64,000 nt of DNA. It comes from Bradyrhizobium arachidis (lineage in GTDB: Bacteria; Pseudomonadota; Alphaproteobacteria; Rhizobiales; Xanthobacteraceae). The stretch lies in NCBI RefSeq assembly GCF_015291705.1, contig NZ_CP030050.1, forward strand, positions 4,154,001 through 4,218,000, read 5' to 3'. A program made the translations under genes and the position numbers. How positions within the stretch are numbered: the stretch's first letter is position 1; each line of letters opens with the position of its first letter. Of the stretch, positions 44,009 through 63,326 are shown piece after piece. The notes under the pieces were generated by a model. That model had not been told where the DNA came from, did not search any database, and saw only the letters and a program-made list of their open reading frames with translations.

Positions 44009-44015
44009 CGCTGCA

Positions 44016-44924: not shown

Positions 44925-45004
44925 CGCAATCTTCCCAATGCACAGAGCACAACTTGGACCGAGGGCCCGGGGGAATCTGATTAATTGCAAGCATCGATAA
45001 TATG

Positions 45005-45022
45005 CCCGTCCAAACGGACGGG
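45005..45022. repeat. Hairpin in the divergent promoter region
   Basis: CCCGTCC-AAAC-GGACGGG is a perfect 7-bp stem-loop in the 257-bp gap between the DUF4399 gene and the SUMF1-fold gene. It may be an operator or a transcript-end hairpin; neither can be shown. Confidence 0.4.
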
Positions 45023-45181
45023 ATGAAACGATTAAAACGATATTCCTTTGCCGCCCAATGTAAACCAAAATCCCGCGGCGCGACTGCACCTTGCCGGTCG
45101 CGGTCGAATGAAGCATGCTATGCGGCATTGAATGTGACGTGTGCATACTCCCGATCGTTCGAGCCGACCGGAGATCACAAT

Positions 45182-47716: not shown

Positions 47717-47730
47717 GTGATTTTCGTCAC
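47717..47730. promoter_or_regulatory. CRP-like site upstream of precursor 1
   Basis: GTGA-TTTTCG-TCAC, a symmetrical CRP/FNR-type palindrome, 71 bases before the precursor start. The flank AGATGGAAAAGTC...CCTCCAGTAT is conserved with the sites at 48830, 50383 and 52748. Exactly 20 bases separate the palindrome from the -10-like AGTATG in all cases. Confidence 0.55.
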
Positions 47731-47800
47731 AGATGGAAAAGTCACCCTCCAGTATGGTTCGAGCCACATGTTGTTCATTGCAACCCCTGAGGAGGGAGTT

Positions 47801-48043
47801 ATGAGTGAAATGCGTGAGCTGATCGATACGGAACTCGACGCCGTGAGTGGAGGACATCACGGGCATCATCATGGGCATCACGGGCATCACGGGCTCTTCA
47901 GCTTCGGCAACATCGGCAATATCGGCCATTTCGGCAATATCGTCATAGAGCAGAACATTGCCGTGCAGATTGGTGTGGCTATCGGCAATAACGCCAGCGT
48001 CACTCAGCAGCTCGGTCAGCTGAACTTCAGCTCTATCCACTAA
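47801..48043 (+). CDS. Double-glycine leader peptide precursor 1 (His-rich core)
   Basis: An 80-residue precursor. The leader MSEMRELIDTELDAVSGG (1-18) ends in a double-glycine cleavage site for a C39 peptidase. The core opens with HHGHHHGHHGHHG, a likely metal-binding run, then FSFGNIGNIGHFGNIVIEQN and VQIGVAIGNNASVTQQLGQ, ending FSSIH. The last 45 residues align with the other five precursors. GGAGGGAG precedes the ATG; an in-frame extension upstream crosses the promoter and is rejected. It should be exported by the 53281-59664 operon. Confidence 0.8.
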   Translation: MSEMRELIDTELDAVSGGHHGHHHGHHGHHGLFSFGNIGNIGHFGNIVIEQNIAVQIGVAIGNNASVTQQLGQLNFSSIH

Positions 48044-48053
48044 ATCGCGGATG

Positions 48054-48090
48054 CCCGAACACTCCTTACCCGCTGCCGAGGGTGTTCGGG
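48054..48090 (+). terminator. Conserved hairpin after precursor 1
   Basis: CCCGAACAC pairs with GTGTTCGGG over 9 bp, with a 19-base loop. It is the same element as at 49167, 51190 and 53077, but one base pair is changed from C-G to A-T on both arms (compensatory). It starts 11 bases after the stop. No T-run follows. Confidence 0.65.
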
Positions 48091-48326
48091 TACGAATTCA
48101 ATCGAGAATTCTCATGGACACGGGCACCGTCGCTCAAGACTCTCGACACGGTGTCGATGCTCAACGAGCGTACCTGTTGCTCATCCTGCCGCGCGCAAGT
48201 TCGTGTCCATTCCGATCGCTTGACCGCCCAAGCCAGCGACCACTTCTGCAACCGCTTCGTTCGCTGGCGGTAGGCCAGCGTGCGGAGCCATGTCATGGAC
48301 GCGCTTGCCGCCGCCAATGATGCCGC

Positions 48327-48580
48327 TGTCCAGGCGATCGACACCTTTATTGTCGGCATCCATCAGCATCGAGCGTGCATCACCCGGAGCGGGTTCAGTC
48401 GATGGGACGCTCCACGGGTGGGGTGGCGCGCAGGATTCTTGCGGTCGTTGATACCAACGGCCTGCCGATCCGGCTCGCGGCAACGCCTTGTCGGGAAAGG
48501 TCCTGTCTCGCCTCAGGGCTCAACATTGCTTGTCGACCGCGGCTGCGACGCCGATTGGGATCAAAGAACTCGCAATGTCG
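48327..48580 (+). mobile_element. Remnant of an IS5-family transposase
   Basis: Fragments of an IS5/IS427-type transposase appear in alternating frames: VQAIDTFIVGIHQHRACI, then GRSTGGVARRILAVVDTNGL and PIRLAATP, then TLLVDRGCDADWDQRT. At least two frameshifts separate them. The DDE catalytic core is incomplete, so it is inactive. It lies between precursors 1 and 2 and may have aided their spread. Confidence 0.7.
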
Positions 48581-48829
48581 TGGAACGCGTCGCCCTGCGG
48601 CGAGCCTGCGGCCACCTCACTCGCGTTCGATCCGTTTGTTGCGCTGAATGGGCGTTGCGTCGCGCTCAATTCTTACACGTGGTGCCTGAGACAGCCAGAT
48701 CCGTTCGAGACATGCGAGAGTCCATGCCACACGAATCAGAACAGAAGCGCCGTGGGAGCAAATGTCGCACACGGCATTTATCCAACGGGCCATATCGTCG
48801 CTAAAGCTGATTGCCACGCCGGGCCCCCC

Positions 48830-48843
48830 GTGATTTCTGTCAC
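48830..48843. promoter_or_regulatory. CRP-like site upstream of precursor 2
   Basis: GTGA-TTTCTG-TCAC with the same downstream flank (AGATAGAAAAACCGTCCTCC, then AGTATC) as the other precursor promoters. It lies 96 bases before the start codon. The spacing suits an activator centred about 41 bases upstream of transcription start. Confidence 0.55.
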
Positions 48844-48939
48844 AGATAGAAAAACCGTCCTCCAGTATCAACACGCGTAGTGAGGCACTGGCTTGCTTTG
48901 AGCTGGATGTTGTTCACCCGCAAACCTGAGGATGGAATC

Positions 48940-49155
48940 ATGAATGAAGTGCGTGAACTGATCGATATGGAACTCGACGCGGTGTCTGGTGGGGGACTCT
49001 TCGACGTGAGCAACTTGTCCGGCAATATCGTCGTACAGCCGCAGATTGCTACGCAGGTCGGTGTTGCCGTCGGCGGCTTCAGCGTCTTCGGCAATGGAGG
49101 CAACGCAAACCTCACACAGCTGCTCGCTCAGGCGAACGTCAGCTCGATCGGCTAA
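48940..49155 (+). CDS. Double-glycine leader peptide precursor 2
   Basis: A 71-residue precursor. The leader MNEVRELIDMELDAVSGG is followed by a 53-residue core: GLFDVSNLSGNIVVQPQ, ATQVGVAVGGFSVFGNGG and LTQLLAQANVSSIG. The core lacks cysteine, so lanthionine or disulfide formation is excluded. It resembles the tandem copies at 50489 but has diverged, indicating an older duplication. GAGGA precedes the ATG. Confidence 0.8.
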   Translation: MNEVRELIDMELDAVSGGGLFDVSNLSGNIVVQPQIATQVGVAVGGFSVFGNGGNANLTQLLAQANVSSIG

Positions 49156-49166
49156 GTCCAGGATGC

Positions 49167-49201
49167 CCCGCACACTCCCGGCCGCTCCCGGGGGGTGCGG
49201 G
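49167..49201 (+). terminator. Conserved hairpin after precursor 2
   Basis: CCCGCAC pairs with GTGCGGG; the loop contains CTCCCGGCCGCTCCCGG. Same position relative to the stop as in the other units, with a shorter stem. Confidence 0.55.
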
Positions 49202-50148
49202 TACAACTCGCTCACTGTAAGGTGCCCGTTACCAAGGTGTTCCGCCATCGGCTAAACGCCTTCGGGCCACCAAGGCTGATAAATCCCGCAACGTAATCGG
49301 ACACATCCCGCTGTCAGATCTTATGACCCGCCGATCCGGGAGTGGCGTCAGCCTGCATCCGAGCTCCTCTCTCCATTCCCCACGGTTAGCCTCCAAGAGC
49401 CGACCATCCATGAATCATTGAGAAATCGGTTCGGGAATCGCTTTTGTGATCGCCGACCAACAGCCTGCATAAAGTAGCGTTAGGCCATGAATTCATAAAG
49501 CCGGTGGCTTGGCGCACCGAAATTGATGGCCGTCTTGCTGTCCTAAAGCGACGCGGTTGCTGCGCGGCAGCGAAATGAAGCGGTGGTCCGTGACCGGCAT
49601 CCGCATGGCATTTGATCGGATCGGCGTGCTGTCGTCGTACAGTCTCCTTCAATAAAAGGTCTTCCCGTTGGTGAAAGGACCAAGGAATCGGTTGTCAGCA
49701 GCTTGATTGAACCGTCTATTGGCCGCGGCGCCGGACGAGCAAGACGGCCGGCGATACAGCGGAGAGCGGGCCGAATGCTACGGCCAAAACCCTCCCTGGT
49801 AGATCTCAGTGAGTATCGGATCCGCCCAACGCGTTCGCGGAATTGAGTGCTGGCACACCGTGCGGCCGGACTTCCAATCCGTCGCCGCGGGCAGGTTCGT
49901 ATCAATTCCGATCGCCTGACCGCTGAAGCTAGCGGCGGCGATAGCAATGTACGATACGACATCAATCGTTCCATCCGATAGGTTCGCAGAAATTGTTGCG
50001 TCGGTTTGAGAGGATCACGATCTTCATAGGCCGATGTCCTGCGCCTGCTGTCACAACCAAGCAAGTGCTGCTGCGGTGGCCACGACATCGAGTCGGAGAA
50101 CTCGCCATCAGGAACGGCGCCTGGCCAGCATCCCTGCGGAAAGCAGTC
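49202..50148. other. 947 bp with no supportable gene
   Basis: Both strands hold only short open frames without ribosome binding sites or recognisable families. The composition is less GC-rich than the catabolic island. It may be decayed mobile or duplicated DNA. Confidence 0.5.
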
Positions 50149-50382
50149 CATGCGTCTACCGAGCCCGCAATATCGATGAACGCGTCTTCAACAGGATCGA
50201 GCAATGTCGTCGGATCGCAACGCGCTTCGACAGCCTTGCGGTCAACTGCCTCGCATACGTTCAGCTCGCGTCAGAGTTCTCGCTCTGCGCTATGAGACCA
50301 GGCCCCCGGGTTATGAAGGTGTCTGAGACAGTCAGGTTCGTTCGAGCGATATCGCAGCCAAGGCTGCCACTGTGGAGCGTGC

Positions 50383-50396
50383 GTGATTCTTCTCAC
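50383..50396. promoter_or_regulatory. CRP-like site upstream of the tandem precursors
   Basis: GTGA-TTCTTC-TCAC followed by AGATAGAAAGGCAACCATCC and GGTAAG, the same layout as at 48830. It probably drives precursors 3, 4 and 5 as one transcript, since no further site lies between them. Confidence 0.55.
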
Positions 50397-50488
50397 AGAT
50401 AGAAAGGCAACCATCCGGTAAGAACACGGGCAGTGAGGCGCTGGTTTGCTTTGAGCCAGATGTCGATCACAGCAACAAGAGGGAAGAC

Positions 50489-50701
50489 ATGATTGAAGCG
50501 TGTGAATTGATCGATATGGAACTCGACGCCGTGTCTGGCGGGTTCTTCGACCTGAGCAATCTGTCCAACAACATCGTCGCGCAGGCGAACTCTGCCACGC
50601 AGGTCGGTGTGGCTCAGGGCGGCTCCAGCGTCTTCGGTGCCGGTGGTGCCGCTGCCGTCACGCAGCTGCTCGCGCAGTCGAACACCAGCTCGATCGGCTA
50701 A
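50489..50701 (+). CDS. Double-glycine leader peptide precursor 3 (first tandem copy)
   Basis: A 70-residue precursor. The leader MIEACELIDMELDAVSGG is followed by a 52-residue core: FFDLSNLSNNIVAQAN, ATQVGVAQGGSSVFGAGG, VTQLLAQSNTSSIG. The only cysteine (Cys5) is in the leader. AGAGGGAAGAC precedes the ATG. The protein is identical to precursors 4 and 6. It is the first of three genes spaced exactly 239 bp apart and lies within the 555-bp duplication. Confidence 0.85.
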   Translation: MIEACELIDMELDAVSGGFFDLSNLSNNIVAQANSATQVGVAQGGSSVFGAGGAAAVTQLLAQSNTSSIG

Positions 50702-50727
50702 GTCACAGAGACCAGAGGAGAGAAATC

Positions 50728-50940
50728 ATGATTGAAGCGTGTGAACTGATCGACATGGAACTCGACGCCGTGTCTGGCGGGTTCTTCGACCTGAGCAATC
50801 TGTCCAACAACATCGTCGCGCAGGCGAACTCTGCCACGCAGGTCGGTGTGGCTCAGGGCGGCTCCAGCGTCTTCGGTGCCGGTGGTGCCGCTGCCGTCAC
50901 GCAGCTGCTCGCGCAGTCGAACACCAGCTCGATCGGCTAA
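50728..50940 (+). CDS. Double-glycine leader peptide precursor 4 (second tandem copy)
   Basis: A 70-residue precursor with the same protein sequence as precursor 3, although the DNA has synonymous changes in the leader (GAACTGATCGACATGG against GAATTGATCGATATGG). Synonymous-only change points to selection on the peptide or to recent homogenisation. AGAGGAGAG precedes the ATG. Confidence 0.85.
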   Translation: MIEACELIDMELDAVSGGFFDLSNLSNNIVAQANSATQVGVAQGGSSVFGAGGAAAVTQLLAQSNTSSIG

Positions 50941-50966
50941 GTCACAGATACCAGAGGAGGGAAGTC

Positions 50967-51179
50967 ATGATTGAAGCGTGTGAACTAATCGACATGGAAC
51001 TCGACGCCGTGGCTGGAGGGTTCTTCGACCTGAGCAATCTGTCCAACAACATCGTCGCGCAGGCGAACAATGCCACGCAGGTCGGTGTGGCTCAGGGCGG
51101 CTCCAGCGTCTTCGGTGCCGGTGGTGCCGCTGCCGTCACGCAGCTGCTCGCGCAGTCGAACACCAGCTCGATCGGCTAA
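50967..51179 (+). CDS. Double-glycine leader peptide precursor 5 (third tandem copy)
   Basis: A 70-residue precursor with two changes from precursors 3 and 4. Ser16 is Ala, making the cleavage motif LDAVAGG, and the core reads AQANNATQ instead of AQANSATQ. AGAGGAGGGAA precedes the ATG. It is the last of the array; the conserved hairpin follows at 51190. Confidence 0.85.
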   Translation: MIEACELIDMELDAVAGGFFDLSNLSNNIVAQANNATQVGVAQGGSSVFGAGGAAAVTQLLAQSNTSSIG

Positions 51180-51189
51180 GTCAGCGATG

Positions 51190-51225
51190 CCCGCACACTC
51201 CTTGGCTGCCCTCGGGGTGTGCGGG
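51190..51225 (+). terminator. Conserved hairpin after the tandem array
   Basis: CCCGCACAC pairs with GTGTGCGGG over 9 bp. It follows the array stop by 10 bases and occurs only after the third copy, not between copies, supporting one polycistronic unit ending here. Confidence 0.65.
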
Positions 51226-51249
51226 TACTCATTTCAATCGAGAACTCTC

Positions 51250-51474
51250 ATGGACACAAGCACCCCTGGTAACGAGAGCGCTGGATCTGGCAAAGCCACA
51301 CGATGCGCAGTTTGTGATCGCAAGTTTGGACTCGTCCGGCACTACTCGTGGCGAACCCCTCTCTGCTCCAAGAAGTGCGTCAATCGCTTCAGAGCTCGTC
51401 GGGCGAGTGATGGCAATTGGCTATCCTGGCTTCTCGCTTTAGACCAGGCGCCAGAGAACCGAGCGAGGGCTTGA
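51250..51474 (+). CDS. Small zinc-ribbon-like protein
   Basis: A 74-residue protein beginning MDTSTPGNESAGSGKATRC. Cysteines in TRCAVCDRKFG and TPLCSKKCVNRF form a Cys4 set likely to bind zinc, followed by a basic helix (RFRARRA). Its first bases (ATGGACACAAGC) recur after the hairpins at 48090 and 53113, where the rest of the gene is lost. It shares the TGATG junction with the next gene. Role unknown; similar small proteins occur in Bradyrhizobium, from memory. Confidence 0.6.
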   Translation: MDTSTPGNESAGSGKATRCAVCDRKFGLVRHYSWRTPLCSKKCVNRFRARRASDGNWLSWLLALDQAPENRARA

Positions 51475-51689
51475 TGACTTCCCAGATTTCACAACGAGGC
51501 AGGGAATACTTACAAATAGCACAGAGCTTGCTCCGCGCTGTCCAAACCATGACCGACCGAGCGATTGCCGCCCAGCTCAAGGCTCTCGCCGACGACTACG
51601 AGCGACGAGCCGAGAAAGCCTCGCATGCTGGTGCGGCCAGAGCAATTACGCGATCGGCCACCAGTGCTGAACGCGAGTGGCGTACATGA
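51474..51689 (+). CDS. Small helical protein of unknown function
   Basis: A 71-residue protein, MTSQISQRGREYLQIAQSLL at the start, then TMTDRAIAAQLKALADDYER. It is predicted to be mostly helical. It starts on the last base of the preceding stop (TGATG), so translation is coupled to the zinc-ribbon-like protein. I recall similar short hypothetical proteins in bradyrhizobia but know no function. Confidence 0.6.
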   Translation: MTSQISQRGREYLQIAQSLLRAVQTMTDRAIAAQLKALADDYERRAEKASHAGAARAITRSATSAEREWRT

Positions 51690-52513
51690 CCAGACGGGCA
51701 GGTTCACAGCCTCCCTGCGGAAGAAATATTGGGACCGAGGCTTCAAGTCGCGATAGTTTTCACAACCCAAGACCACTCGGGTGAGTACTTGGCCGGTCGA
51801 GCGCTTGGGTATCCGATTCTATTGCGCCCCTGGTCTAGAGGCGAGGCAGAAAAGCCAGCGGAGTCGCGCTGCAACGGCGGCGGGAAGAGCATGAAATACG
51901 CCGCGCTTATCCAGGTTGATCGCTGCTTGTAGAAAGCAGCTCCGTTCCATGCCCTACGCCTACCTCAAACGTCCTAGTGCGAGGAAACACTACGTCGCCG
52001 TCATTGGCGGGCCGGCGTGGAGCATGACGAACTCTCCGAGGCATGAACTGACGAGCCAGACCTATAGACATCGGCCTGGCGAGCGGTTCCGAGCGGGAAA
52101 CACGCCCGCGCTCGTTATCCGAGCCTTGCATTCGCTGACATACCGCCACGGAGCTGCGATGTGATCGTCCGCCCTCTGAAATGAGCGGCTCGATTCAGCA
52201 GGAAGATGCTTTTTCTCGTGGCGTTACACTTCCGCGATGTTCCCATTCGCGAATAGTCGGATGCTGGCCGGTGACCGCCCCTATGAGAGCTCTCGCCGTG
52301 CTTTGAAAGGAGAGTGCCTAAAAGCCAACAGCACCAGGCTCCGGAGGCTCGCAATCATGACTGCGTTAACGCCCGCTCCACGCTTACAGCTCAAGTAGCA
52401 CATGCGCGGCGCATCGGCGATCGCGTCCAGCGCGCCGCACGCGGCAGGAAACATCCCGACCTAGCTGACGGTTGCTTCTCGAGTGCGTATGCTCACGGTC
52501 GGGGTGCATCGCT
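51690..52513. other. 824 bp with no supportable gene
   Basis: No frame here combines a ribosome binding site with a recognisable family. It separates the tandem array from the duplicated promoter-precursor unit. It may contain decayed genes. Confidence 0.5.
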
Positions 52514-52747
52514 CATGCGTCTACCGAGCCCGCAATATCGATGAACGCGTCTTCAACAGGATCGAGCAATGTCGTCGGATCGCAACGCGCTTCGACAGCC
52601 TTGCGGTCAACTGCCTCGCATACGTTCAGCTCGCGTCAGAGTTCTCGCTCTGCGCTATGAGACCAGGCCCCCGGGTTATGAAGGTGTCTGAGACAGTCAG
52701 GTTCGTTCGAGCGATATCGCAGCCAAGGCTGCCACTGTGGAGCGTGC

Positions 52748-52761
52748 GTGATTCTTCTCAC
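52748..52761. promoter_or_regulatory. CRP-like site upstream of precursor 6
   Basis: GTGA-TTCTTC-TCAC, identical to the site at 50383 as part of the duplication. Confidence 0.55.
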
Positions 52762-52853
52762 AGATAGAAAGGCAACCATCCGGTAAGAACACGGGCAGTG
52801 AGGCGCTGGTTTGCTTTGAGCCAGATGTCGATCACAGCAACAAGAGGGAAGAC

Positions 52854-53066
52854 ATGATTGAAGCGTGTGAATTGATCGATATGGAACTCGACGCCGTGTC
52901 TGGCGGGTTCTTCGACCTGAGCAATCTGTCCAACAACATCGTCGCGCAGGCGAACTCTGCCACGCAGGTCGGTGTGGCTCAGGGCGGCTCCAGCGTCTTC
53001 GGTGCCGGTGGCGCCGCTGCCGTCACGCAGCTGCTCGCGCAGTCGAACACCAGCTCGATCGGCTAA
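52854..53066 (+). CDS. Double-glycine leader peptide precursor 6
   Basis: A 70-residue precursor identical in protein sequence to precursors 3 and 4. It has its own promoter region, CRP-like site and downstream hairpin, forming a single-gene version of the array. It converges with the exporter operon, whose last gene ends 214 bp away. Confidence 0.85.
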   Translation: MIEACELIDMELDAVSGGFFDLSNLSNNIVAQANSATQVGVAQGGSSVFGAGGAAAVTQLLAQSNTSSIG

Positions 53067-53076
53067 GTTACCAATG

Positions 53077-53113
53077 CCCGCACACTCCTTGGCTACTTCC
53101 GGGGGTGTGCGGG
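53077..53113. terminator. Conserved hairpin between precursor 6 and the exporter operon
   Basis: CCCGCACAC pairs with GTGTGCGGG over 9 bp. It sits between convergent transcripts. After it, ATGGACACAGGC begins a copy of the 51250 gene that ends after 8 codons (53138-53164). Confidence 0.65.
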
Positions 53114-53280
53114 TACTCATTTCAATCGAGAACTCTCATGGACACAGGCATCCTCGCGCAATGAACTGGGGCAGAGGTCTTGACACGGTGTCGATGCCCA
53201 ACGAGCGTACTCGTGCCCACCTGCCGAGAGATCCTCATCCACAGGGAATGGCCCGGCCTAGCGATGCGTCCGCCGTTAGG

Positions 53281-56184
53281 CTAGTGATGAGCCGATTCAA
53301 GCAGCTGCCGCTTGGCAAAATCCGCAAACGGCCCCGGCTCGTTCATGAGCTCCGCGTAGCTTCCCGCTTGCACGACCTTGCCGCGCGAGAGCATGACAAT
53401 ACGATCCGCATTGCGCACGGTGCTGAGGCGATGCGCAATCACAATCCTCGTAATGCTCAATCGTTCCAGCGAGGTGCCGACGATGCTTTGGGTTTGGTTG
53501 TCGAGTGCGCTGGTTGCCTCATCAAACAGAAGAATCCGTGGTGAGCGCGCAAGAGCGCGGGCGATCAATAGTCGCTGCCGCTGACCGCCTGACAGCGTAG
53601 TCACGCCTTCCGCAACCAGCGTATGCATGCCCATCGGCATCTGCGCGATGTCGGCATCCAGCGCCGCCAGTCGGGCGGCCTCCCAGGCCTTCTCCAGCGG
53701 CAGATCAACGCCGCCGCAAATGTTGTCGTAAAGGCTTCCGGTTGCGAGCTTGGTATCTTGCAGAACTACGCCAAGCTGCCGGCGCACGGCGCTGATGTCG
53801 AGCGTGTTGAGAGCCTTGCCGTCGTAAAACACCGTGCCAGCTTCCGCCCGCTCAAAACCGAGCAGCAAACGAAAGAGCGACGATTTCCCGCTACCTGAGG
53901 GACCGACGATCGCGACGTAGTCACCCGTCGCAATGCTCAAGCTGATATCATCCAGGACCTTCGGCCCGCCTTTCATATAGCGGAACACGATGCCGGAAAG
54001 TTCGAGCTCTCCAGATAGCTCTCCGGGTGATCGCCGTTCCTCAGAGATCTCGGCTGGAGTGGAAATCACGGGCTTCAAGCGGCTGAGGTGAGGAATCGCC
54101 ACCAGTGATTCACTGACGCTCGAGGCCCAACTGCCGATCGCGGCCGTGGCCTGTCCGAACGCTGCCAGAAAGCCGAGAAACGCGCCGAGATCGAGCAGGA
54201 CGTGACTGTTTGTGTAGGAGGCGAGCGCAAAGATGACCAATGTCGCCAGCATCGGAAAGGCGGTATCAAAGGTACTCAGCGCGTTGGCCGCTTGCTGCGA
54301 GGTAATAAAATAGCGCCTCTGTACGGCAAATTGTTGCGACCATCGCGCTAACGCGCGCGCCGTTGCGCCTGCCACGCGCAGCTTGCCGACTCCCGCAATC
54401 AATTGCAGCACAAAGCCACTGGCCTTGCCTTGCAGGTTGAACTGCTTGGTTTCGTAGTAGAGTCGCACGGCGCTCGTGCCAAGAATTGCAGCTGCTCTAA
54501 TCATGGTAAGCAGCAGTGCAATGCCGCCCAGTCGGAGGTCATAGTAGAGCATCAGTCCAATGCTGAAGAGACAAAAGAACGAGGCCGTAAAGCCGCCCAG
54601 CACACGCCCGGTGAAGATCCGGCGAGTGGCGTCGATGCCCATGGCGCGATCGACCAAATCGCCGCTTGTATATTCGCGAAATAGAGAGGTGGGCAGGCGG
54701 AGCAGTCGGTCGATCAGCGCGGCCTGCAGCTTATAGTCGAGCAGACCTTCGAGCCTTAACGTGACCCGTCCTTGCATCGCCTGCAGACCGGCCATCGCCA
54801 AAGCGGTGACCGTCAGCGCAAGCGCACAAACAAGGAGCTGATCGATCTCGGTGCGCGGGATAACCGAATTGACAAGGACATTGGTGATCAGTGGCGGCAT
54901 CAGCGACAGTAGCCCGATTGCTATAACAGCCAACGCGATGCGCGCGATGCTGCCGGAAACGCCTCGCATCGCAAAGGTAAGCAGATCGCGATATTGGAGC
55001 GGGCGGGACGGCAGCGCCGGATAGAAAGTGATGGCCTCTGATTTGAGTTCGCCAGCAACGGAGCGATCGACCGGGCGACGACTTCCACCCTTTGGGTCGA
55101 ACATCGTGTAGGTGTTCGCCCGCTCGCGCACCAGAGCCACTGGACTGCGTTGGTCTCCGTGCCAACCGAGGAGCGGTCCGGCATCGGTCTTCCACCAGAC
55201 ATCGCGCAGGAGTACACGGCGGATCCGCAACTGGGCTGTGCGAGCGATCTCCAGAATGTCGCTGAAGGCCTGTCTTGTGGGTTGAGCGCGCTGCGAAAGT
55301 GTAACCGGTATTCCCAGTTCTTCTCCGACAACCCGGCAACTGCAAAGCAGTGGGTCTGTCGGGTCCCATTCGGATTGCGCACGATCGGCTTTCTTGACCA
55401 CGACATCAGCGAGCCGCTCAAACGAGTCGAGGGTTTGCGACGCAGTGAGTTCGTCGCGGCGGACCAGGCGTTCCCGCTCTCGAATGACGCCCTCTGCCAG
55501 GCTGCGCTCAAGATGAGCGATAACTGTTACCTGGAATCGATCAATCGCGGACCACAGAACCTGGGTACCTGGCGGGTTTGGGTCGAGACGCAATTTGCAC
55601 CCGCGCTCGCCGGCTTCCACCCACACCCCAGCGGTCAAAGGGAAGGGAGGCTGCCCGGGAGCGAAGCTCGAGCCGAGGTTCATGACCTTTGCTGTCCCGG
55701 TGTCGAGGTGTGCCCACAGGAGGTCCCGCATCGGACCGCGACGTCGCTCGCCCGGGTGTAGTTCAATCTCCTCACCGCTCACCAACTCGGAAATCGCTTC
55801 GTTTGCCGCCGAGCGGACCATGAACACCGCCAATTGGGCAATCCAGCCAGACACAGGGACAAAGGACGCTGCACTGCGCGGTATCTCCAAAAGCGCATTC
55901 CCAGGCGGGCCGACAGCGATGATTTGGAGCCGGCTGCCCGAGGTTTCGCAGGCATTGTGCAGGTCCAGAATGCATCCGCCGTTTTCGACACGAAATAAAT
56001 GCTGGCGCGTGCCCGTCGGCTGAACTGCAAATAAATCGACGTGACCGGCTGCCACTTGAAGAACGTGTTCGTGGTCGCTGAGAAGCATTGGGCGACGCGC
56101 ATCGAGCGAAGTCCGGTGCGACAGACCGATCGGCGCCTCGCGTTGTTGTCCGACGAAATTCTCGCTGACAAATCGATCCGTCAT
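53281..56184 (-). CDS. NHLM-type ABC transporter, permease/ATP-binding protein without peptidase
   Basis: A 967-residue exporter subunit. Residues 1 to about 400 are a soluble N-terminal extension with no C39 catalytic motifs. A transmembrane domain lies at about 415-700 (ALAVIAIGLLSLMPPLITNV). The ATPase follows, with Walker A GPSGSGKSS, signature LSGGQRQR and Walker B ILLFDEATSALD. This matches the second ABC protein of NHLM bacteriocin systems. Its start overlaps the peptidase-transporter stop by 4 bases. Last gene of the exporter operon. Confidence 0.88.
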   Translation of the reverse strand: MTDRFVSENFVGQQREAPIGLSHRTSLDARRPMLLSDHEHVLQVAAGHVDLFAVQPTGTRQHLFRVENGGCILDLHNACETSGSRLQIIAVGPPGNALLEIPRSAASFVPVSGWIAQLAVFMVRSAANEAISELVSGEEIELHPGERRRGPMRDLLWAHLDTGTAKVMNLGSSFAPGQPPFPLTAGVWVEAGERGCKLRLDPNPPGTQVLWSAIDRFQVTVIAHLERSLAEGVIRERERLVRRDELTASQTLDSFERLADVVVKKADRAQSEWDPTDPLLCSCRVVGEELGIPVTLSQRAQPTRQAFSDILEIARTAQLRIRRVLLRDVWWKTDAGPLLGWHGDQRSPVALVRERANTYTMFDPKGGSRRPVDRSVAGELKSEAITFYPALPSRPLQYRDLLTFAMRGVSGSIARIALAVIAIGLLSLMPPLITNVLVNSVIPRTEIDQLLVCALALTVTALAMAGLQAMQGRVTLRLEGLLDYKLQAALIDRLLRLPTSLFREYTSGDLVDRAMGIDATRRIFTGRVLGGFTASFFCLFSIGLMLYYDLRLGGIALLLTMIRAAAILGTSAVRLYYETKQFNLQGKASGFVLQLIAGVGKLRVAGATARALARWSQQFAVQRRYFITSQQAANALSTFDTAFPMLATLVIFALASYTNSHVLLDLGAFLGFLAAFGQATAAIGSWASSVSESLVAIPHLSRLKPVISTPAEISEERRSPGELSGELELSGIVFRYMKGGPKVLDDISLSIATGDYVAIVGPSGSGKSSLFRLLLGFERAEAGTVFYDGKALNTLDISAVRRQLGVVLQDTKLATGSLYDNICGGVDLPLEKAWEAARLAALDADIAQMPMGMHTLVAEGVTTLSGGQRQRLLIARALARSPRILLFDEATSALDNQTQSIVGTSLERLSITRIVIAHRLSTVRNADRIVMLSRGKVVQAGSYAELMNEPGPFADFAKRQLLESAHH

Positions 56185-58403
56185 TCGCGCGCCACCAGTT
56201 TGGCATAGGAAGCCTGAAGCGCAAGAAGCTCTTCATGCGTGCCGCGTTCAACGATGCGACCGCGTTCGAGCACGATGATTTCGTCGCAATCGCGTATAGT
56301 ACTCAAGCGGTGGGCGATGATGATGCAGCTGCAGCCGCGGCGCCGCAGGTTGTCGTCGATGGATTTTTCCGTGATCGGATCAAGTGCAGCCGTCGCTTCA
56401 TCCAAGACAAGGATCGAGGGATTGCAAACCAGGGCGCGGGCGATTTCGATGCGCTGACGCTGACCACCGCTGAAGTTCGTACCGCCCTCATTGACGTGGC
56501 AGTCATAATTGCCTGGTCTAGTCGCAAGGTCTTGATGAATGAGCGCGTCCTTGGCCGCCGTCAGGAGGTGGCGCTCATCGGTTGTTGAATCCCAGAGCGT
56601 TAAATTGTCCCGCGCCGTTCCCTCGAACAGAAAGACGTCCTGGTCGACATAGGCGACGGAGTTCGCAAAAATGTCCGCAGGGACATCCGTCAGCTTACAT
56701 CCATCAAAACGAATCTCGCCGGACCAGGGTTTGTACAGTCCGCAGATCAGTTTGCCGAGGGTTGATTTTCCACTGCCCGACATGCCAACGAGTGCCACGC
56801 GCGAACCGGCAGGGATCACCAGCGAAAGATCCGCCAAAAGCGGCGGTTCGAGCACCGAATAGCCGAAGCTGATATTGTGAAGTTCGAGTCGGCCGGTAAG
56901 CTTCGGCGGCAAGGCACCCGCATGTGTCGGAGGTTGCGGCGCTAGCGGGTATCGGTAGACATCCTCGAGCCGTTCGAGCGCTCCCTTGATGGTTTGCAGG
57001 CCACCGAAATAGTTCACGAGGTTGACGAAAGGCTCGGAGAAACTCAATGCTAAGGATTGGAAGGCCACGAGGCTTCCCAGCGTCAACGAGCCCTGAATGA
57101 CCCGCAAGCCTCCGACACCAAGAATCGCTGCGATCATGAGACCCGTAAGCAAGGTCGGGACCATGTCCAATATGATGGCGGAGGCGCCGATCCTCTGTTC
57201 GGCGTTGAGGTTTTTGGCTTGAAGACCGGCCCACCGGCCAAAGGCGTCGTCTTCCAATCCACTTGCTTTGATGGTTTCGATAGTCCGCACCATGCTCACG
57301 GTCGCCCCGAGTAGCCTTCCCTGATCGAGCGCCAGCCGATAGCTCAGTTCCTGGCGGCGTGAAGCGACAAGCCGCAGGAGAAGAACATTTATCAATGAGA
57401 TTGTGACGCAAAGCGCGGTTAGGCTGACGTCGTAGACGGCCATGGCCGCGGCGAACAAGACCACCGACATCAGGCTGAGCGCATTGGCGGCAATGCCACT
57501 TGAAAGCAGCCGGGCGATCTGTTCGTTGGCTGCAATACGGCCCGCAATGTCGCCGGCGTGACGTTGGGTGAAAAATTCCATCGGCAGCGCCATGAGGCGC
57601 CACAGAAAACGGCTGGTCATCACGACGGCGAGCTTGGTCTGCAGCCGCAATAGCAGCGATTGGCGTATGGTGGTCAGAACGGCCCGGAGAGCCGCCGTCA
57701 GCGCCATGCCGATCAGGAGCGGCACAAGCCAGCTGCGCGTGTGCTGGATCAAAATCTCATCAACAAAGATTTTTGAAAATCCCGCGGCAACAATATTGGG
57801 CAGGACCGCGGCGATGCTGACAACAACTAGCAGGGCCACCGCCTGCTTTGAGTGGCGCAGCTCCCGTATGAGCAGGCCTATTCCCTTCGGTTTGCTGCCG
57901 ACCTTCTCGAACCTTTCGCCCCGTTCGAACACCAGGACAACGCCGGTGAAGGCGTGGTCAAGCTCGACCAGATCGATCTGCCGACGCCCGCTCGCGGGGT
58001 CATTTATGTAGGCCCGCTTTCTATTAATTCCTTCCAGAACCACGAAGTGGTTGAAGTTCCAGTGAATGATGCAAGGCGTTGGAATCTCGGCAAGTGCCGG
58101 AGGCTCGACGCTGTACCCCTTCGCCGTCAGTCCGTATCGGCGCGCCGCTCTGATGATGTTGCTCGCCTTGCTGCCGTCACGCGATACGCCGCATGCGACG
58201 CGAAGCTCCTCCAACGGAATCCACGCACCGTAATAACCGAGAATGATGCCAAGCGCTGCCGCACCGCATTCGACGGCTTCCATCTGCAGTATGATGGGTG
58301 TCCGCTGGCTGCGTCGCTGCGGCAACCAGCTCGCCATGCGGCTGACGTAGGATTTGGGCCGGCCGCGCCCGCTGGTTGGCTGGTTTGGAGAGCGCCTATC
58401 CAT
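56181..58403 (-). CDS. NHLM-type peptidase C39/ABC transporter (leader-cleaving exporter)
   Basis: A 740-residue protein. Residues 30-165 are a C39 cysteine protease with Gln40, Cys46 (QMEAVECGAAAL), His119 (WNFNHFVVLEG) and Asp135 (INDPASGRR), all present. A six-helix membrane domain follows (about 195-470), then the ATPase with [17 protein letters not shown] and ILVLDEATAALD. It cleaves leaders after Gly-Gly and exports the core, which fits the LDAVSGG precursors nearby. The ATG overlaps the HlyD stop by 8 bases. Confidence 0.92.
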   Translation of the reverse strand: MDRRSPNQPTSGRGRPKSYVSRMASWLPQRRSQRTPIILQMEAVECGAAALGIILGYYGAWIPLEELRVACGVSRDGSKASNIIRAARRYGLTAKGYSVEPPALAEIPTPCIIHWNFNHFVVLEGINRKRAYINDPASGRRQIDLVELDHAFTGVVLVFERGERFEKVGSKPKGIGLLIRELRHSKQAVALLVVVSIAAVLPNIVAAGFSKIFVDEILIQHTRSWLVPLLIGMALTAALRAVLTTIRQSLLLRLQTKLAVVMTSRFLWRLMALPMEFFTQRHAGDIAGRIAANEQIARLLSSGIAANALSLMSVVLFAAAMAVYDVSLTALCVTISLINVLLLRLVASRRQELSYRLALDQGRLLGATVSMVRTIETIKASGLEDDAFGRWAGLQAKNLNAEQRIGASAIILDMVPTLLTGLMIAAILGVGGLRVIQGSLTLGSLVAFQSLALSFSEPFVNLVNYFGGLQTIKGALERLEDVYRYPLAPQPPTHAGALPPKLTGRLELHNISFGYSVLEPPLLADLSLVIPAGSRVALVGMSGSGKSTLGKLICGLYKPWSGEIRFDGCKLTDVPADIFANSVAYVDQDVFLFEGTARDNLTLWDSTTDERHLLTAAKDALIHQDLATRPGNYDCHVNEGGTNFSGGQRQRIEIARALVCNPSILVLDEATAALDPITEKSIDDNLRRRGCSCIIIAHRLSTIRDCDEIIVLERGRIVERGTHEELLALQASYAKLVARE

Positions 58404-59664
58404 CAATGCCCGTGAGGTGCTTGAGCAGGGGTATCACCAGATCGAGGGGGCGCTGCCGGCGTGTTGTGATCTCGGCCCGAGCCAACGTTCCGCTCGTGAG
58501 ATGAATGTTCGGCCCCTCGCCCACGGCCCATCGATATCCGGTTGGAGTGGAGGCGTCTTCATCGAGCGCAACCATCGCGGCGTAAGGTGCACCGTCGCGC
58601 GAGAAGCGTGAAACCAGGCTTTCGTTATGCAGCAGCGCGGCCATGCCTTGCGGCGTCATCGGGAAATCAGAGATGCTGATTACGTTGCCGAGCATCATGC
58701 CGAATTCCTCGCGCTTGACCGTGCTTGGCTCGAGCTGCACCTGCATGCCAGGCTTGATCTGTTTGCCCCGTTCGGCGGGAACATAGACGAGGGCTTGGAG
58801 CTTGGCGCCTTCGCTTTCGATCGCAATCACCGGTGTGCCGATGGCCAGCACCGAACCGGGCGAAATCTTCACTTCCAAAACACGCCCGTCCATCGGGCTG
58901 ATCACTTGGGTGTTCTGGCTCAGCTGTTCGGCGGCGGCATTCATCTGCCGCCGGGCCTCGTTGAGGGAAAACTCGGATTGCTGAATTTCGCGACCACGCT
59001 CCGTTTCCAGATCCGTCTTCTGCGACCGCAGCTTCAAAATCTCGTTTTGGGCGTCAGTACGGCGCTGTTGCGCATCGGCCAGCTCCTGGCGTCGCTCTTC
59101 CAAATTGCGCCGCGTCGTGTATCCCTTGGCCAGCAAATCCTCGAGGTTTTTGACATCGACGGTGAGATATTCGATACGCTGGCTCGTTGCCTTGATTACC
59201 TGTTGCAGAGCCATTTCAAGTTTTGCAAAGTTCTGGCTCTTAGCGGCGAGTTCGCTTGCAGCTTTCGACACCCGATCGGCGTGCTCTCGCTGGCGTTCAT
59301 GAAAGACCTCGGTGGCTGCGTTGTGCTTTTGCTGGATCTCGGTTTGAACGATCTGGGCGATGGGTTGGTCCTTGTTGACGTGCTCGCCCACCGTGACTGC
59401 GACCGACTGCAGCCGTCCGGCCGCGGCGGATACGGCCTCGACGACCTTACCGCCACTGCCGATCAGGATTCCCTCACCGGAGACGCGAGTGGGCACGCGC
59501 CCGAAAATGCTCCACAGCACGGCCGCCCCAAGCGCAATGCACAGTACAAGGGTAAGAATCCAGTCAGCAGGCTTGGTGATAACAACGAGATGATCGAGCT
59601 GCTCGGGAGACGCAGCCCGGTCAAGGGCCGCGGCGCGAAACGCCCGTTGCGGCCCACCGGTCAT
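58396..59664 (-). CDS. NHLM-type HlyD family secretion adaptor
   Basis: A 422-residue periplasmic adaptor. One transmembrane helix lies at about 33-55 (WILTLVLCIALGAAVLW). A lipoyl-type hairpin half follows (GRVPTRVSGEG, GGKVVEAVSAAAGRLQSV), then a long coiled coil (about 105-245) and a beta-barrel part (VISPMDGRVLEVKISPGSV). The ATG at 59664 is preferred, with GGAG 9 bases upstream and the usual family beginning FRAAALDRAASPEQLDHL shortly after. Longer starts at 59706 or 59772 are possible. First gene of the exporter operon. Confidence 0.88.
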   Translation of the reverse strand: MTGGPQRAFRAAALDRAASPEQLDHLVVITKPADWILTLVLCIALGAAVLWSIFGRVPTRVSGEGILIGSGGKVVEAVSAAAGRLQSVAVTVGEHVNKDQPIAQIVQTEIQQKHNAATEVFHERQREHADRVSKAASELAAKSQNFAKLEMALQQVIKATSQRIEYLTVDVKNLEDLLAKGYTTRRNLEERRQELADAQQRRTDAQNEILKLRSQKTDLETERGREIQQSEFSLNEARRQMNAAAEQLSQNTQVISPMDGRVLEVKISPGSVLAIGTPVIAIESEGAKLQALVYVPAERGKQIKPGMQVQLEPSTVKREEFGMMLGNVISISDFPMTPQGMAALLHNESLVSRFSRDGAPYAAMVALDEDASTPTGYRWAVGEGPNIHLTSGTLARAEITTRRQRPLDLVIPLLKHLTGIDG

Positions 59665-59813
59665 GCTCTTATGCTCCGGGTTTGGGAGCGGTTCAGACGC
59701 CGACATGTCTGCACTCAAAAGCAAGTGTGAACTGAAGCCGACGATCCCCGATCTTTGCACAGAAGCAACCATCTAACAATCAATAAGGGGTGGCAGGGGA
59801 AGGACCAATTGGG

Positions 59814-60341
59814 ATGTACGGGCTGATCGGCACCACGAGATTTTCGTTCCCTGCGCGAACGCACCGAAAGATGCTGGCGGCAAGCTTGGGGCTTGGGCTT
59901 TTCCTACCGGGTATGTGCTGTGCGGGCGTCCTGTCCGAGGGCGATTTCAGGCAAGCGGAGAGCCTTAGGCCGCTTTTTGCCAACCTCATGAACGACCTTG
60001 TCGCAACCGCAAAGCGTCCCGATGTTTCGAGCGGGGACGCCGACTGTGTCAACTCGGCTATTCGGGAACTTCTTCAGATCTCCGACGAACTGGCAAGCTA
60101 TGAGTATTTGATTACGATGGAGAAAGATCTGATCGATTTTGGCGACAAAAATCCAATGCGTGATATCGTCAAGTTTGCCGTCGACAAGAGCAGCGCGATC
60201 CTGATGAGCGAAAGAAAGCGGTTGGTTCAAATATCCGAGCGGTGTACCAAATATCCGTTAGGGCAAGGAAAGATTGAGCAGGCCCTAACCATCATCGACA
60301 CGACGACAGGCATATTGGCTTCCATTCGAGCTCGCCTTTGA
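59814..60341 (+). CDS. Exported protein of unknown function, divergent from the exporter operon
   Basis: A 175-residue protein. Its N-terminus has a basic region and a hydrophobic run (KMLAASLGLGLFLPGMCCAG) consistent with a signal or lipoprotein-like signal. The mature part is helical with two cysteines (DADCVNS, SERCTKY). It shares a 149-bp divergent promoter region with HlyD. It may be an accessory or immunity-type protein; this is inference from position. Confidence 0.6.
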   Translation: MYGLIGTTRFSFPARTHRKMLAASLGLGLFLPGMCCAGVLSEGDFRQAESLRPLFANLMNDLVATAKRPDVSSGDADCVNSAIRELLQISDELASYEYLITMEKDLIDFGDKNPMRDIVKFAVDKSSAILMSERKRLVQISERCTKYPLGQGKIEQALTIIDTTTGILASIRARL

Positions 60342-60708
60342 CCGTGCGAAAGAAGGGCCCGCGCGGTAAGCGATCTCCACGTGCGGAGGTGACAGCCAAG
60401 GACCCCTTGCAGATCCTAATCGAGAAAAGCGCGCCCAGGTCGACCGGTGAGTAGCCGAGCACCATCGAGAACACCTTGGTGCCACTTTTTGTAAACCGGC
60501 GGCAAGCGTCCGGCGGTGTAGGCCTGACTGTCTTCGATCGGCCCCAAGTTGCTGGGCGAGGGCGGCGATCCGACAGATCTTGGCGATGCAAATCCAGGAT
60601 CATGACAAGTTCCCGAAGTTTGATCACCGCGCCCTCCCTGCTGCCTGTGGCAGCAGCGTCGACGTCTCGGCGGCTTGCCAGCGCTGGTCGCGGGAGTATA
60701 GTTTCTCG
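60342..60708. other. 367 bp with no supportable gene
   Basis: No frame with both a start signal and a family resemblance. An in-frame TTG at 60580 could extend the next protein by 43 residues, but that extension looks unrelated to its domain. Confidence 0.45.
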
Positions 60709-61185
60709 ATGGCTGTCAGCTCGCTCGATCTGAAAGCGTTTTTGCTTGCCACACCATTCTTCGGTGGTCTCTCAGACACGAGTTGCGATCTCTTGGTCTC
60801 TATGCTGGTCGAGCGCCGCTTCGACGTCGGCGACATTGTCGTGGCGGAAGGAGAGCCGGGCCGCTCAATGTTCGTTGTTCACTCCGGCCATCTCGTGGTG
60901 AGCAAGCTCGGGGGCTCGGGGCGCATAGTTCGCATGGCGAGCCTTGGGCCTGGCGACTTTTTTGGCGAAATGACGCTTATCGAGATGCAGAACCGATCAG
61001 CGACTATCGTTGCGCAGAGCCCAACCCTGCTGTACGAGCTGGCGGCTCGACAACTCTACGCGTACTACAAGGCCGACATCTACGCGTATGTGATGGTGAT
61101 GCAGAATATCAACCGCGAGCTTTGTCGGCGGCTTCGCCGTGCCGACAATCGCATTGCGGAGCTGCAGAGGCTTCATGCGAGTTAG
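60709..61185 (+). CDS. Cyclic nucleotide-binding domain protein without a DNA-binding domain
   Basis: A 158-residue protein. The CRP-type sensor domain spans about 5-120: FLLATPFFGGLSD, VEGEPGRSMFVVHSG-like VAEGEPGRSMFVVHSGHLVV, and LGPGDFFGEMTLIEMQNRSATIVA. The phosphate-binding cassette is FFGEMTLIEMQNRSA; the arginine is present. After a C-helix the protein ends at about 158 with no helix-turn-helix, so it cannot itself bind the GTGA-N6-TCAC sites in the classical way. The ATG is chosen by domain start; no strong ribosome binding site is seen. Confidence 0.75.
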   Translation: MAVSSLDLKAFLLATPFFGGLSDTSCDLLVSMLVERRFDVGDIVVAEGEPGRSMFVVHSGHLVVSKLGGSGRIVRMASLGPGDFFGEMTLIEMQNRSATIVAQSPTLLYELAARQLYAYYKADIYAYVMVMQNINRELCRRLRRADNRIAELQRLHAS

Positions 61186-62336
61186 GGACGAAGTGATGTT
61201 TATGTCCGGCGGGAGCAGTAATCAGGAGCGGCTCGTCATCATTGAGCGCCAACTATGTCGGGTCGATAAAGGCCAGCCAGGAGAGGTAGGCGCACACTAA
61301 CAGGATCTTCTGAGCGTTGGTCGAGCCGTGCTCATCTTCAACCTGTCAGGCCGCGCTGGCTGAGATTGCGGCGGTATCGATGTCGCTGCGGCTTGTAGGT
61401 CAGAGAATCTGCCGTTTCCTGCTGAGACTCGCCACAGGCAAGGCGTTGTGGCGCCAAGATGAGTCCGTGTTGGCCGGCAGCGAAGGCTGTAGGCCAACGA
61501 GGAGTTTATGCTCGGTTTGGCGAGATGCGCATAAGGCTGGGATGCCGCTTTTGAAAACGCGTTGCACGATTTTGTCGAGCAGCCCAAAGGCCTGTTGGAT
61601 GTGAGCCGACTGCTCACTTCTGTTGATGTGTTTGGATGAACTGTGGCGCGGCGGGCTGAAGCTTCTTCCAGTTGCAGCATTTCTGATCGGCATTGCTCTC
61701 TCTTGTCGCCGCGATCCTCAAGCCGATCTGGCGTGTGCACTGAGAATCCAAAGACGCGATTTCCGCTTCCAAATCATGCCTATATGGCCCAAGAAGAGCC
61801 AAGCTGCAGTGGCTTCGTCGCACCGGATTTCTCAGTCGGTCCCAATCACACGAAGGATCAGTTTAGGGCTAAATAGATAAACGGAATGAATGGCTTAAGT
61901 TGTGAATTTTCCGGGGCGCCATGATGGATCGGGCTGGCTGATCCAAGCTCGCGTTAGGCGTTGCTTGATAACGTGAGCTCGATGAACATTGAGATGGGCC
62001 GCAGATGGGCCGCGTTCTCGCGCTCGTCAGTTGCACGATCCGATGCTGAGACGTCGGAGATCTCGTTCCGACCGGACGCTACTACCGCGCAGGCCATTCA
62101 GACGGGGTCCGCTTTGTGCAGCTGTCCATGCATAGCTGCCGCAAGCCTTCACCGCCGCTTGTGACCCCAAGAGGACGTTGACCTTGGCCGAAGCTCTCTC
62201 CAGAATGTTGGGGCAGCGGAGCCTATCATTAGCAAAGGTGAACCCGTGCATCGGTTGGGTATCTTCGACGAAGTGCGAGAGCGCCTGATCCTCCGCCCGT
62301 GGTGGCGTCGCGGTGTTTGACCGTTTGAGACCGCGC
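61186..62336. other. 1,151 bp without a recognisable gene
   Basis: Several short overlapping frames occur on both strands, none with convincing start signals or families. It includes the second copy of the 33-bp repeat (61758-61790). It is probably decayed DNA. Confidence 0.5.
61758..61790. repeat. 33-bp repeated motif, copy 2
   Basis: It differs from 22681-22713 at three positions and contains ATCATGCCTATATGGCCC. It lies in apparently non-coding DNA here. Confidence 0.55.
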
Positions 62337-62396
62337 CGCACGACGCACATCGGCATCGATCTGCAAAACGGCTTCATGGCCCGGGCCGGAAACTAG
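62337..62396 (+). pseudogene. Possible fragment of an isochorismatase-family hydrolase
   Basis: The frame reads RTTHIGIDLQNGFMARAG and then a stop. The strand IGIDLQNGFM resembles the N-terminal DxQ motif of cysteine hydrolases of the isochorismatase family. Only 19 residues remain, so the assignment is tentative. Confidence 0.35.
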
Positions 62397-62516
62397 CCCG
62401 ATGAACCCAACCAACCGTGCCGACAATACGAAGACATGCCAGAACACGTCCACCATCACGATGCGCGATCAAGATCACATCACCTCGCCAAAAACATCTA
62501 TATCGCTCCCCATCAA

Positions 62517-62536
62517 GGCGAGGAATGGTCCTCGCC
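62517..62536 (+). promoter_or_regulatory. Hairpin in the leader of precursor 7
   Basis: GGCGAGGA-ATGG-TCCTCGCC is a perfect 8-bp stem with a 4-base loop. It ends 25 bases before the start codon and 14 bases before the ribosome binding site AGGAGAG. It could stabilise the transcript or modulate translation. Confidence 0.5.
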
Positions 62537-62561
62537 TGAAACACTTTCATAGGAGAGCGAC

Positions 62562-62759
62562 ATGACTACGATCAAAGAACTGACGACCGCAGAGTTCGAT
62601 GTCGCGAGAGCACTAACGGATGACGACCTCGACATCGTCACAGGCGGAAAGGACGTCGCATACATTCAAGCGGCCCCGATAGGGAATTTTCTTGTTCACA
62701 TGTCCGATAAAAGCACAACCGTCGTATACTATCCACCCGGCACATCTGGGAGACCGTAA
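62562..62759 (+). CDS. Double-glycine leader peptide precursor 7 (different type)
   Basis: A 65-residue precursor. The leader (1-29) ends ALTDDDLDIVTGG, a classic double-glycine motif. The 36-residue core starts KDVAYIQAAPIGNFLVHMSD and ends YYPPGTSGRP; it lacks cysteine and is not related to precursors 1-6. AGGAGAG precedes the ATG. A weak CRP-like half site lies at 62464-62479. It probably uses the same C39 exporter. Confidence 0.75.
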   Translation: MTTIKELTTAEFDVARALTDDDLDIVTGGKDVAYIQAAPIGNFLVHMSDKSTTVVYYPPGTSGRP

Positions 62760-63254: not shown

Positions 63255-63326
63255 GTGAAACGCCGCGAGTTCATTAGGTTGCTAGGCGGCGCAGCGGTGG
63301 CGCACAGCGTGGTCGGTAAGCGCTGA
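63255..63326 (+). pseudogene. Truncated signal-peptide fragment of an ABC substrate-binding protein
   Basis: GTG begins MKRREFIRLLGGAAVAH, the characteristic N-terminus of the ABC_sub_bind family, with GGAGG upstream. A stop follows after 23 codons. The body of the gene is missing. The stop overlaps the next ATG (TGATG). Confidence 0.6.

Follow-up and report, generated by a model that had tools for sequence, protein, structure and literature searches.

A six-gene family of double-glycine peptides beside an NHLM-type export trio in Bradyrhizobium arachidis, with a tentative case for stackable extracellular subunits

The window analysed here is a 64,000-nt stretch of the Bradyrhizobium arachidis genome (G000), and within it lies a locus that combines a family of small peptide precursors bearing double-glycine (Gly-Gly) leaders with an adjacent exporter of the NHLM type (Table 1). 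The plus strand encodes six precursors of one family from 47801 to 53066, each 70-80 aa long and starting with ATG, and their 18-aa leaders end in VSGG or VAGG. Three types can be told apart: one A, with a His-rich core start, one B, and four copies of C, of which C1, C2 and C4 are the same protein and C3 is 97% identical. The genes apparently form four transcription units, namely A, B, C1-C2-C3 and C4. The segment 50149-50646 (498 nt) recurs without change at 52514-53011, and because this repeat spans the upstream region, a putative regulatory box and most of the gene, either C1 or C4 is a recent copy. The locus falls in a segment of lower GC content, with 0.56-0.61 per 2-kb window over 40-64 kb as against 0.62-0.68 over 1-40 kb.

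The export genes ABC2, C39-ABC1 and HlyD are adjacent on the minus strand and face the precursors, and all three products score above the curated NHLM cut-offs. The translation of ABC1 has the residues expected of a C39 peptidase, Gln and Cys in LQMEAVECG, His in IHWNFNH and Asp in YINDP, which we take to be the catalytic set of a predicted active enzyme. The leader end, ELIDxELDAVSGG, fits the NHLP/N11P cleavage logo in the cited part of PMC2887384 (acidic at positions 1, 4 and 6, Leu at 2 and 7, Ser/Thr at 3, Val/Leu at 10, Gly-Gly at 12-13), except at position 3, where Ile replaces Ser/Thr. Four precursors were scanned for the nitrile hydratase-like (TIGR03793) and Nif11 (TIGR03798, PF07862) leaders and gave no match at E <= 1, and Nif11 is absent from the Pfam matches of 60 family members. 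Since the leaders fit the logo, bar position 3, and have no large leader domain, the handling of the precursors by the trio is well supported, and export by this route is very probable.

An earlier note on this DNA had described most of these elements, and its account of the six related precursors at these starts, of a C39-peptidase ABC exporter with its catalytic set, a second ABC protein and HlyD, and of Cys-free cores is borne out by the translations and profile scores. Its statement that no modification enzyme is visible also holds within the part scanned, as none of the lanthionine, YcaO or radical-SAM families was found with Pfam among 17 proteins from the 39-64 kb part of the window (nine of them also scanned with NCBIfam), a scan that took in neither the remaining open frames there nor the first 39 kb. 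The seventh, unrelated precursor that it listed, at 62562-62759, is an open frame with a Gly-Gly leader; it is a weak candidate, because tblastn at E <= 0.01 gave nothing for it in the 49 loci that were fetched, some of which end short of the region, and no box lies nearby. It may be an isolated or spurious precursor.

The distribution of the family was examined in 242 Bradyrhizobium genomes and 377 genomes of the order. The first alignment (A1) had nine loci in five Bradyrhizobium genomes as its named hits and matched 23 of the 242 at E <= 0.01, many through the leader alone. The profile built from 60 rows of types A, B and C matched 17 at E <= 0.001, and seven of these (G000, G001, G082, G103, G105, G113 and G140) have strong, near-full-length matches that cover core residues as well (best E <= 2e-22). 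The remaining ten are weak (7.7e-7 to 8.1e-4) and mostly restricted to the leader. Partial relatives, short ones, also occur in G149 and G201 (E 3e-7 and 9e-12 with A1). The 377 genomes of the order gave two matches, both in Bradyrhizobium, namely G000 and one weak leader-only match. When ABC2 was searched against the same 242 genomes, 60 matched, and the top group consisted of exactly the seven carriers at 87-100% identity, followed by the next genome at 66%. TIGR03797 is above cut-off in 62 of the 242, so the chance that all seven carriers fall among them is about 6e-5 by simple counting, uncorrected for relatedness. Precursors adjoin the exporter in six of the seven carriers; the exception is G001, a fragmented assembly in which the two lie on separate contigs. 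Three carriers (G001, G103 and G140) apparently coincide with named A1 hits and are thus not independent. Type C varies in copy number, whereas most carriers have one A and one B. The conserved synteny of precursors and exporter in related genomes argues that the locus is more than a chance arrangement.

Each of the four units is preceded by a palindrome, GTGA-N6-TCACAGAT, which is matched without mismatch and occurs nowhere else in the window; its GTGA-N6-TCAC motif resembles the CRP site of E. coli. With one mismatch allowed, the window contains six matches against 0.15 expected from shuffles. Genome-wide, the exact pattern occurs nine times, four of them at the locus, and the reversed-pattern control not at all; the shorter GTGA-N6-TCACAG has 31 matches versus six for its control, and palindromes of this kind thus also occur away from the locus. 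Across nine genomes, counted with one locus set per genome and with three contig-edge genes left out, the first genes of the family are preceded by GTGA-N6-TCAC within 230 nt in 29 of 30 cases, the nearest copy at 83-114 nt, and the ten downstream copies in none. The sole first gene that lacks it (locus L011) comes after a truncated copy where a contig stops. The far ends of the units are marked as well: right after the stop codons of A, B, C3 and C4 there is a hairpin of -23 to -31 kcal/mol (for C3, GCCCGCACACTCC ... GGGGTGTGCGGG), absent after the unit-internal C1 and C2. The A stem is preserved by a paired change, GAACAC/GTGTTC for GCACAC/GTGTGC, and the hairpin is kept in many, not all, relatives.

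The box is not limited to this family. The fetched loci, which came from leader or exporter searches and are a sample rather than a census, encode 41 other Gly-Gly peptides in 23 clusters, and the box stands before 18 of the 21 clusters that have a first gene, compared with 81 of 1059 control starts (binomial tail 8.5e-18). Its nearest copy is at 83-105 nt in 17 of the 18, and one of the 18 (VSDLGK, L094) is possibly a decayed relative of the family. The loci concerned are L017, L029-L034, L036-L038, L047, L052, L071, L075, L094, L095, L136, L137, L140 and L149. Because the box also precedes these other peptides, a shared genus-wide regulon of Gly-Gly peptides, read from sequence, is likely. 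The 19 loci in which both HlyD and the divergent gene at 59790 could be located (L009 and L088 among them being one locus) have no GTGA-N6-TCAC box between the two.

Once the leader is removed, the A, B and C cores contain no Cys, Lys or Arg and one acidic residue each, with 19-21% Gln plus Asn and 29-46% Gly plus Ala plus Ser; apart from 11 His residues in A they are nearly uncharged. Conservation falls on every second residue over NxVxQxNxAxQxGxAxG and again over AxVxQxLxxQxNxSxI, and the segment between these two stretches varies in length, like a loop. Over the 36-residue unit in the 60-row alignment, the autocorrelation of conservation changes sign with every lag up to 8, odd lags being negative and even ones positive (T = 2.45, permutation p = 5e-5), and the alternation is recovered in the 47 A-type rows (p = 0.0038) and in the 13 B and C rows (p = 0.0032). 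Period-2 power is significant inside each stretch (p = 0.0007 and 0.0001), and core conservation has no sign of a helical period of 3.6. In several A-type relatives, P0039-P0047 among them, a single peptide contains two tandem units, so that units can be strung together in cis just as the copies are in trans. For B cores the pooled pairwise ratio of nonsynonymous to synonymous substitution (dN/dS) is 0.10 and for C cores 0.23, with 0.51 and 0.33 for the respective leaders; these values are drawn from seven sequences each (two of the C sequences from one genome), the pairs are not independent, and gene conversion among C copies is possible. Families of bacteriocins and of ribosomally synthesized and post-translationally modified peptides (RiPPs) usually show the reverse of such constant cores and looser leaders.

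Because of the strand alternation, the tandem units, the unequal copy numbers of the three types, the lack of Lys and Arg and the constrained B and C cores, we consider that stackable beta-strand subunits fit the locus better than arms-race toxins, and put them slightly ahead of a set of bacteriocins. A CRP-family regulator would bind the upstream palindrome, the C39 peptidase would cut the leaders after Gly-Gly, and the trio would export the unmodified cores through a TolC-like channel encoded elsewhere. Outside the cell the cores might then stack by their two conserved beta-strand-like stretches into amyloid-like material, which would remain at the surface as a coat or fibre. Type C, with the most copies, would be the main subunit, and A, whose His-rich tail is possibly metal-binding, and B would be minor or starter subunits. 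This reading as a whole, export followed by stacking, is our tentative preference, and the self-assembly step taken by itself is plausible but far from secure. The fuller proposal is rather unlikely to be right in every part: a functional amyloid built from tiny, exporter-trimmed peptides of three subunit types, one of them multi-copy, by a route distinct from curli (type VIII) and Fap and under a cyclic-nucleotide-type operator that also controls unrelated Gly-Gly peptides across the genus.

Several observations weigh against stacking. The limits of the strand unit were set after the pattern was seen, and over the whole core the alternation is weaker (p = 0.021 for A and 0.060 for C; p = 0.012 and 0.017 in other runs); period-2 power over the whole C core is not significant (p = 0.86), since the two stretches are there out of phase. 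Type A also varies, with 53% precursor identity between the window and B. jicamae or G113, most of the variation falling in the His/Gly-rich core start. AlphaFold2 models for type C and for a type A relative with two units have low confidence, with predicted local distance difference test (pLDDT) values of 54.1 and 43.7. None of the genes was recognised as a dedicated outer-membrane pore, chaperone or nucleator, in an analysis that included no search aimed at FapF or Fap repeats. Curli offers strand-turn-strand style units with alternating Gln/Asn/Ala/Gly, but the peptides have a Gly-Gly leader in place of a Sec signal, none of the 60 family members matches the curlin repeat PF07012, and homology was rejected, since the likeness is by eye only and alignments to the genome's own curlins are no better than composition shuffles: of 500 shuffles, 33 scored as well for C, 27 for A and 217 for B, against four for an unrelated control peptide. 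A search of PDB sequences with the family profile was likewise set aside; its 48 weak matches (best E 0.004) mostly start in the His-rich part and were taken as His-tag artefacts. Separately, several curlin-repeat proteins with PF07012 above cut-off are encoded at G000:C1:6202585-6203830, and the genome may also have a curli-type system.

The strongest competitor is a set of unmodified class II bacteriocins or microcins directed against competing rhizobia, acting free or aggregated on the surface as in Cdz, and we regard it as a serious, if somewhat doubtful, explanation. It is favoured by the classic layout of Gly-Gly leader and C39 exporter, by weak profile scores and by the box, which also precedes glycine-zipper, bacteriocin-like peptides in other genomes of the genus, as a bacteriocin regulon would have it; this last point counts against stacking. 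The scores all lie below cut-off: 17.6 bits against 27.1 for Bacteriocin_IIc (PF10439), with five of 60 members at E <= 1 and a best of 9.5e-5; four of 60 at E <= 1 for microcin V, with a best of 0.013; and 20.7 bits against 32 for CTB bacteriocins (NF038167), with E 3.4e-4. Bacteriocin-like activity of a Bradyrhizobium strain is reported in the cited part of PMC4520892. Against toxins stand the absence of Lys and Arg, the GVAxG motif as the sole GxxxG in each core, with no extended GxxxGxxxG zipper, cores of B and C more constrained than their leaders, unlike those of arms-race toxins, and a conservation that follows period 2 rather than a helix. The syntenic loci have no recognised immunity gene that covaries with the precursors, though small unannotated genes may escape notice there. 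AlphaFold2, the curlin comparison and Pfam do not decide between bacteriocins and stackable subunits.

The predicted-secreted protein at 59790 counts on the same side. It occurs at family loci that extend beyond HlyD and at 11 of 12 other Bradyrhizobium NHLM loci (L096, L097 and L115-L123), whatever the precursor, and because it thus accompanies the exporter type, an accessory role in export is more likely for it than one in specific immunity. Its homologues number 608 at E <= 1e-5, and none of the Pfam domains reaches its cut-off in it. The twelfth locus, L098 (G000:C1:6128000-6147000), is a second NHLM-type trio of the same genome, with exporter proteins 31-42% identical to those of the window; it lacks the 59790 protein, and no Gly-Gly peptide was found there by the pattern used.

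Secreted signals or plant-interaction peptides, carrying messages between cells or to the legume host, are improbable. The cores are predicted to be secreted, the near-identical copies suggest dosage, and nodA is present in all seven carriers compared with 130 of the 242 genomes; yet nodA lies about 2 Mb from the locus in G000, which leaves the link to a symbiosis island weak, the kinship of the carriers is uncorrected in that count, no receptor gene was recognised, and three subunit types with tandem units would be odd for signals.

A modified RiPP, with its tailoring enzyme encoded elsewhere or represented by the secreted FGE/SUMF1-like protein at 45002-46054 (PF03781), is very improbable: the NHLM trio is described alongside modified peptides in the cited part of PMC2887384, and the precursors share synteny with the FGE-like, DUF4399 and caspase-like genes, but the same block occurs apart from them and the FGE-like protein, the nearest potential modifying enzyme, is itself predicted to be secreted. 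Known FGE/SUMF1 relatives act on Cys, which the window cores lack. The block of caspase-like, tandem-DUF4399 and secreted FGE-like genes (42704-46054) is conserved in family loci that reach that far and is located between precursors in G113, G082 and B. jicamae. It was dropped as a part of the system, being present also in all seven further 20-kb stretches (L108-L114) without a recognisable Gly-Gly precursor, although two of the genomes concerned, G149 and G201, have partial family relatives elsewhere. One GTGA-N6-TCAC match between the DUF4399 and FGE-like genes was rejected as an operator, as in this window it falls inside the signal-peptide codons of the FGE-like gene.

Among the closest known systems is the NHLM cassette (TIGR03794/03796/03797; Haft 2010, PMC2887384), with all three proteins above cut-off and a leader end that largely fits the motif in the cited part of that paper; the locus differs in its conserved, nearly uncharged cores, in lacking an NHLP/Nif11 leader domain and in that none of the scanned proteins is a modification enzyme. 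The cyanobacterial bacteriocin clusters (Wang 2011, PMC3140520) share C39 exporters, many Gly-Gly precursors and, in some groups, a three-gene cassette, and the cited part of that paper classes 150 of 290 precursors as 'Other'. From these and from CTB bacteriocins, to which the profile similarity is weak, the locus is set apart by cores found only in Bradyrhizobium among the genomes searched, by the CRP-like box and by the lack of a SurA-type gene among the scanned proteins. Caulobacter Cdz, as described in the cited part of PMC5380434, is likewise alphaproteobacterial, with small peptides exported by type I secretion and CdzC aggregating on the surface; it has two peptides, extended glycine zippers and the immunity gene cdzI, whereas here neither a zipper run nor an immunity gene was recognised. 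The Pseudomonas Fap amyloid (cited part of PMC5557850) shares N/Q-rich repeats, the need for a C39 peptidase and a division into major and minor subunits, roles that are only presumed here, and the repeats and peptidase count in favour of stacking; Fap uses Sec, the periplasmic FapD and the FapF pore in place of a Gly-Gly leader and ABC export, and the likeness carries no established homology of repeats.

The earlier note had seen in the locus a secretion system for unmodified, Gln/Asn/Gly-rich peptides that matched no described class. Dedicated export and the composition stand; the claim of an unmatched class needs qualifying, as the exporter class and, in cyanobacteria, Gly-Gly precursors outside NHLP/Nif11 are already known from the cited parts of PMC2887384 and PMC3140520. 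The note named two outcomes that would refute it, and neither arose: among the 242 genomes, near-full-length precursors were confined to the seven carriers, the same genomes as the 87-100% ABC2 clade, and none of the scanned precursors scored above cut-off for a known bacteriocin or structural family. It had not mentioned the strand alternation, the CRP-like box, the hairpins at unit ends or the relatives with tandem units. No report of the core family, its pairing with one exporter clade, the shared box or the beta pattern was met in the one literature library searched. If the cores do stack, they would be a surprising cargo for exporters so far classed with bacteriocins and RiPPs, which would then also build protein material outside the cells of root-nodule bacteria, and coats on these cells could affect attachment and competition. 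Independently of stacking, the shared box means that deletion of one regulator could test many unassigned Gly-Gly peptides across Bradyrhizobium, and the box could serve as a marker for finding more.

Table 1. Features of the precursor and export locus, with window coordinates
Feature	Position	Strand	Remark
CRP-like palindrome GTGA-N6-TCACAGAT, unit A	47717..47734	+	exact match
Precursor A, 80 aa, Gly-Gly leader, His-rich core start	47801..48043	+
Hairpin after A stop	48052..48092	+	likely terminator or mRNA 3' end
CRP-like palindrome, unit B	48830..48847	+
Precursor B, 71 aa	48940..49155	+
Hairpin after B	49167..49201	+
498-nt segment, duplicated at 52514-53011	50149..50646	+
CRP-like palindrome, unit C1-C3	50383..50400	+
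Precursor C1, 70 aa	50489..50701	+
Precursor C2, 70 aa	50728..50940	+	same protein as C1
Precursor C3, 70 aa	50967..51179	+
Hairpin after C3	51186..51230	+
CRP-like palindrome, unit C4	52748..52765	+
Precursor C4, 70 aa	52854..53066	+	same protein as C1
Hairpin after C4	53075..53115	+
ABC2, NHLM permease/ATPase without peptidase	53281..56184	-	TIGR03797 866 bits, cut-off 709
ABC1, NHLM C39-peptidase/permease/ATPase	56181..58406	-	TIGR03796 1033 bits, cut-off 853; PF03412
HlyD-type adaptor	58396..59772	-	TIGR03794 312 bits, cut-off 156
Uncharacterised predicted-secreted protein, divergent from HlyD	59790..60341	+	true start possibly further in
Cyclic-nucleotide-binding domain protein	60580..61185	+	PF00027; TIGR03896 33 bits, cut-off 161

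Beyond the 59790 gene, the cyclic-nucleotide-binding domain protein at 60580 is a possible regulator of export; Pfam found no DNA-binding domain in it. At the end of the window, a gene for a patatin-like phospholipase occupies 63326-64000 and runs past the last position, and a relative of it is found near the caspase/DUF4399/FGE block in G082, G200, G046 and G065.

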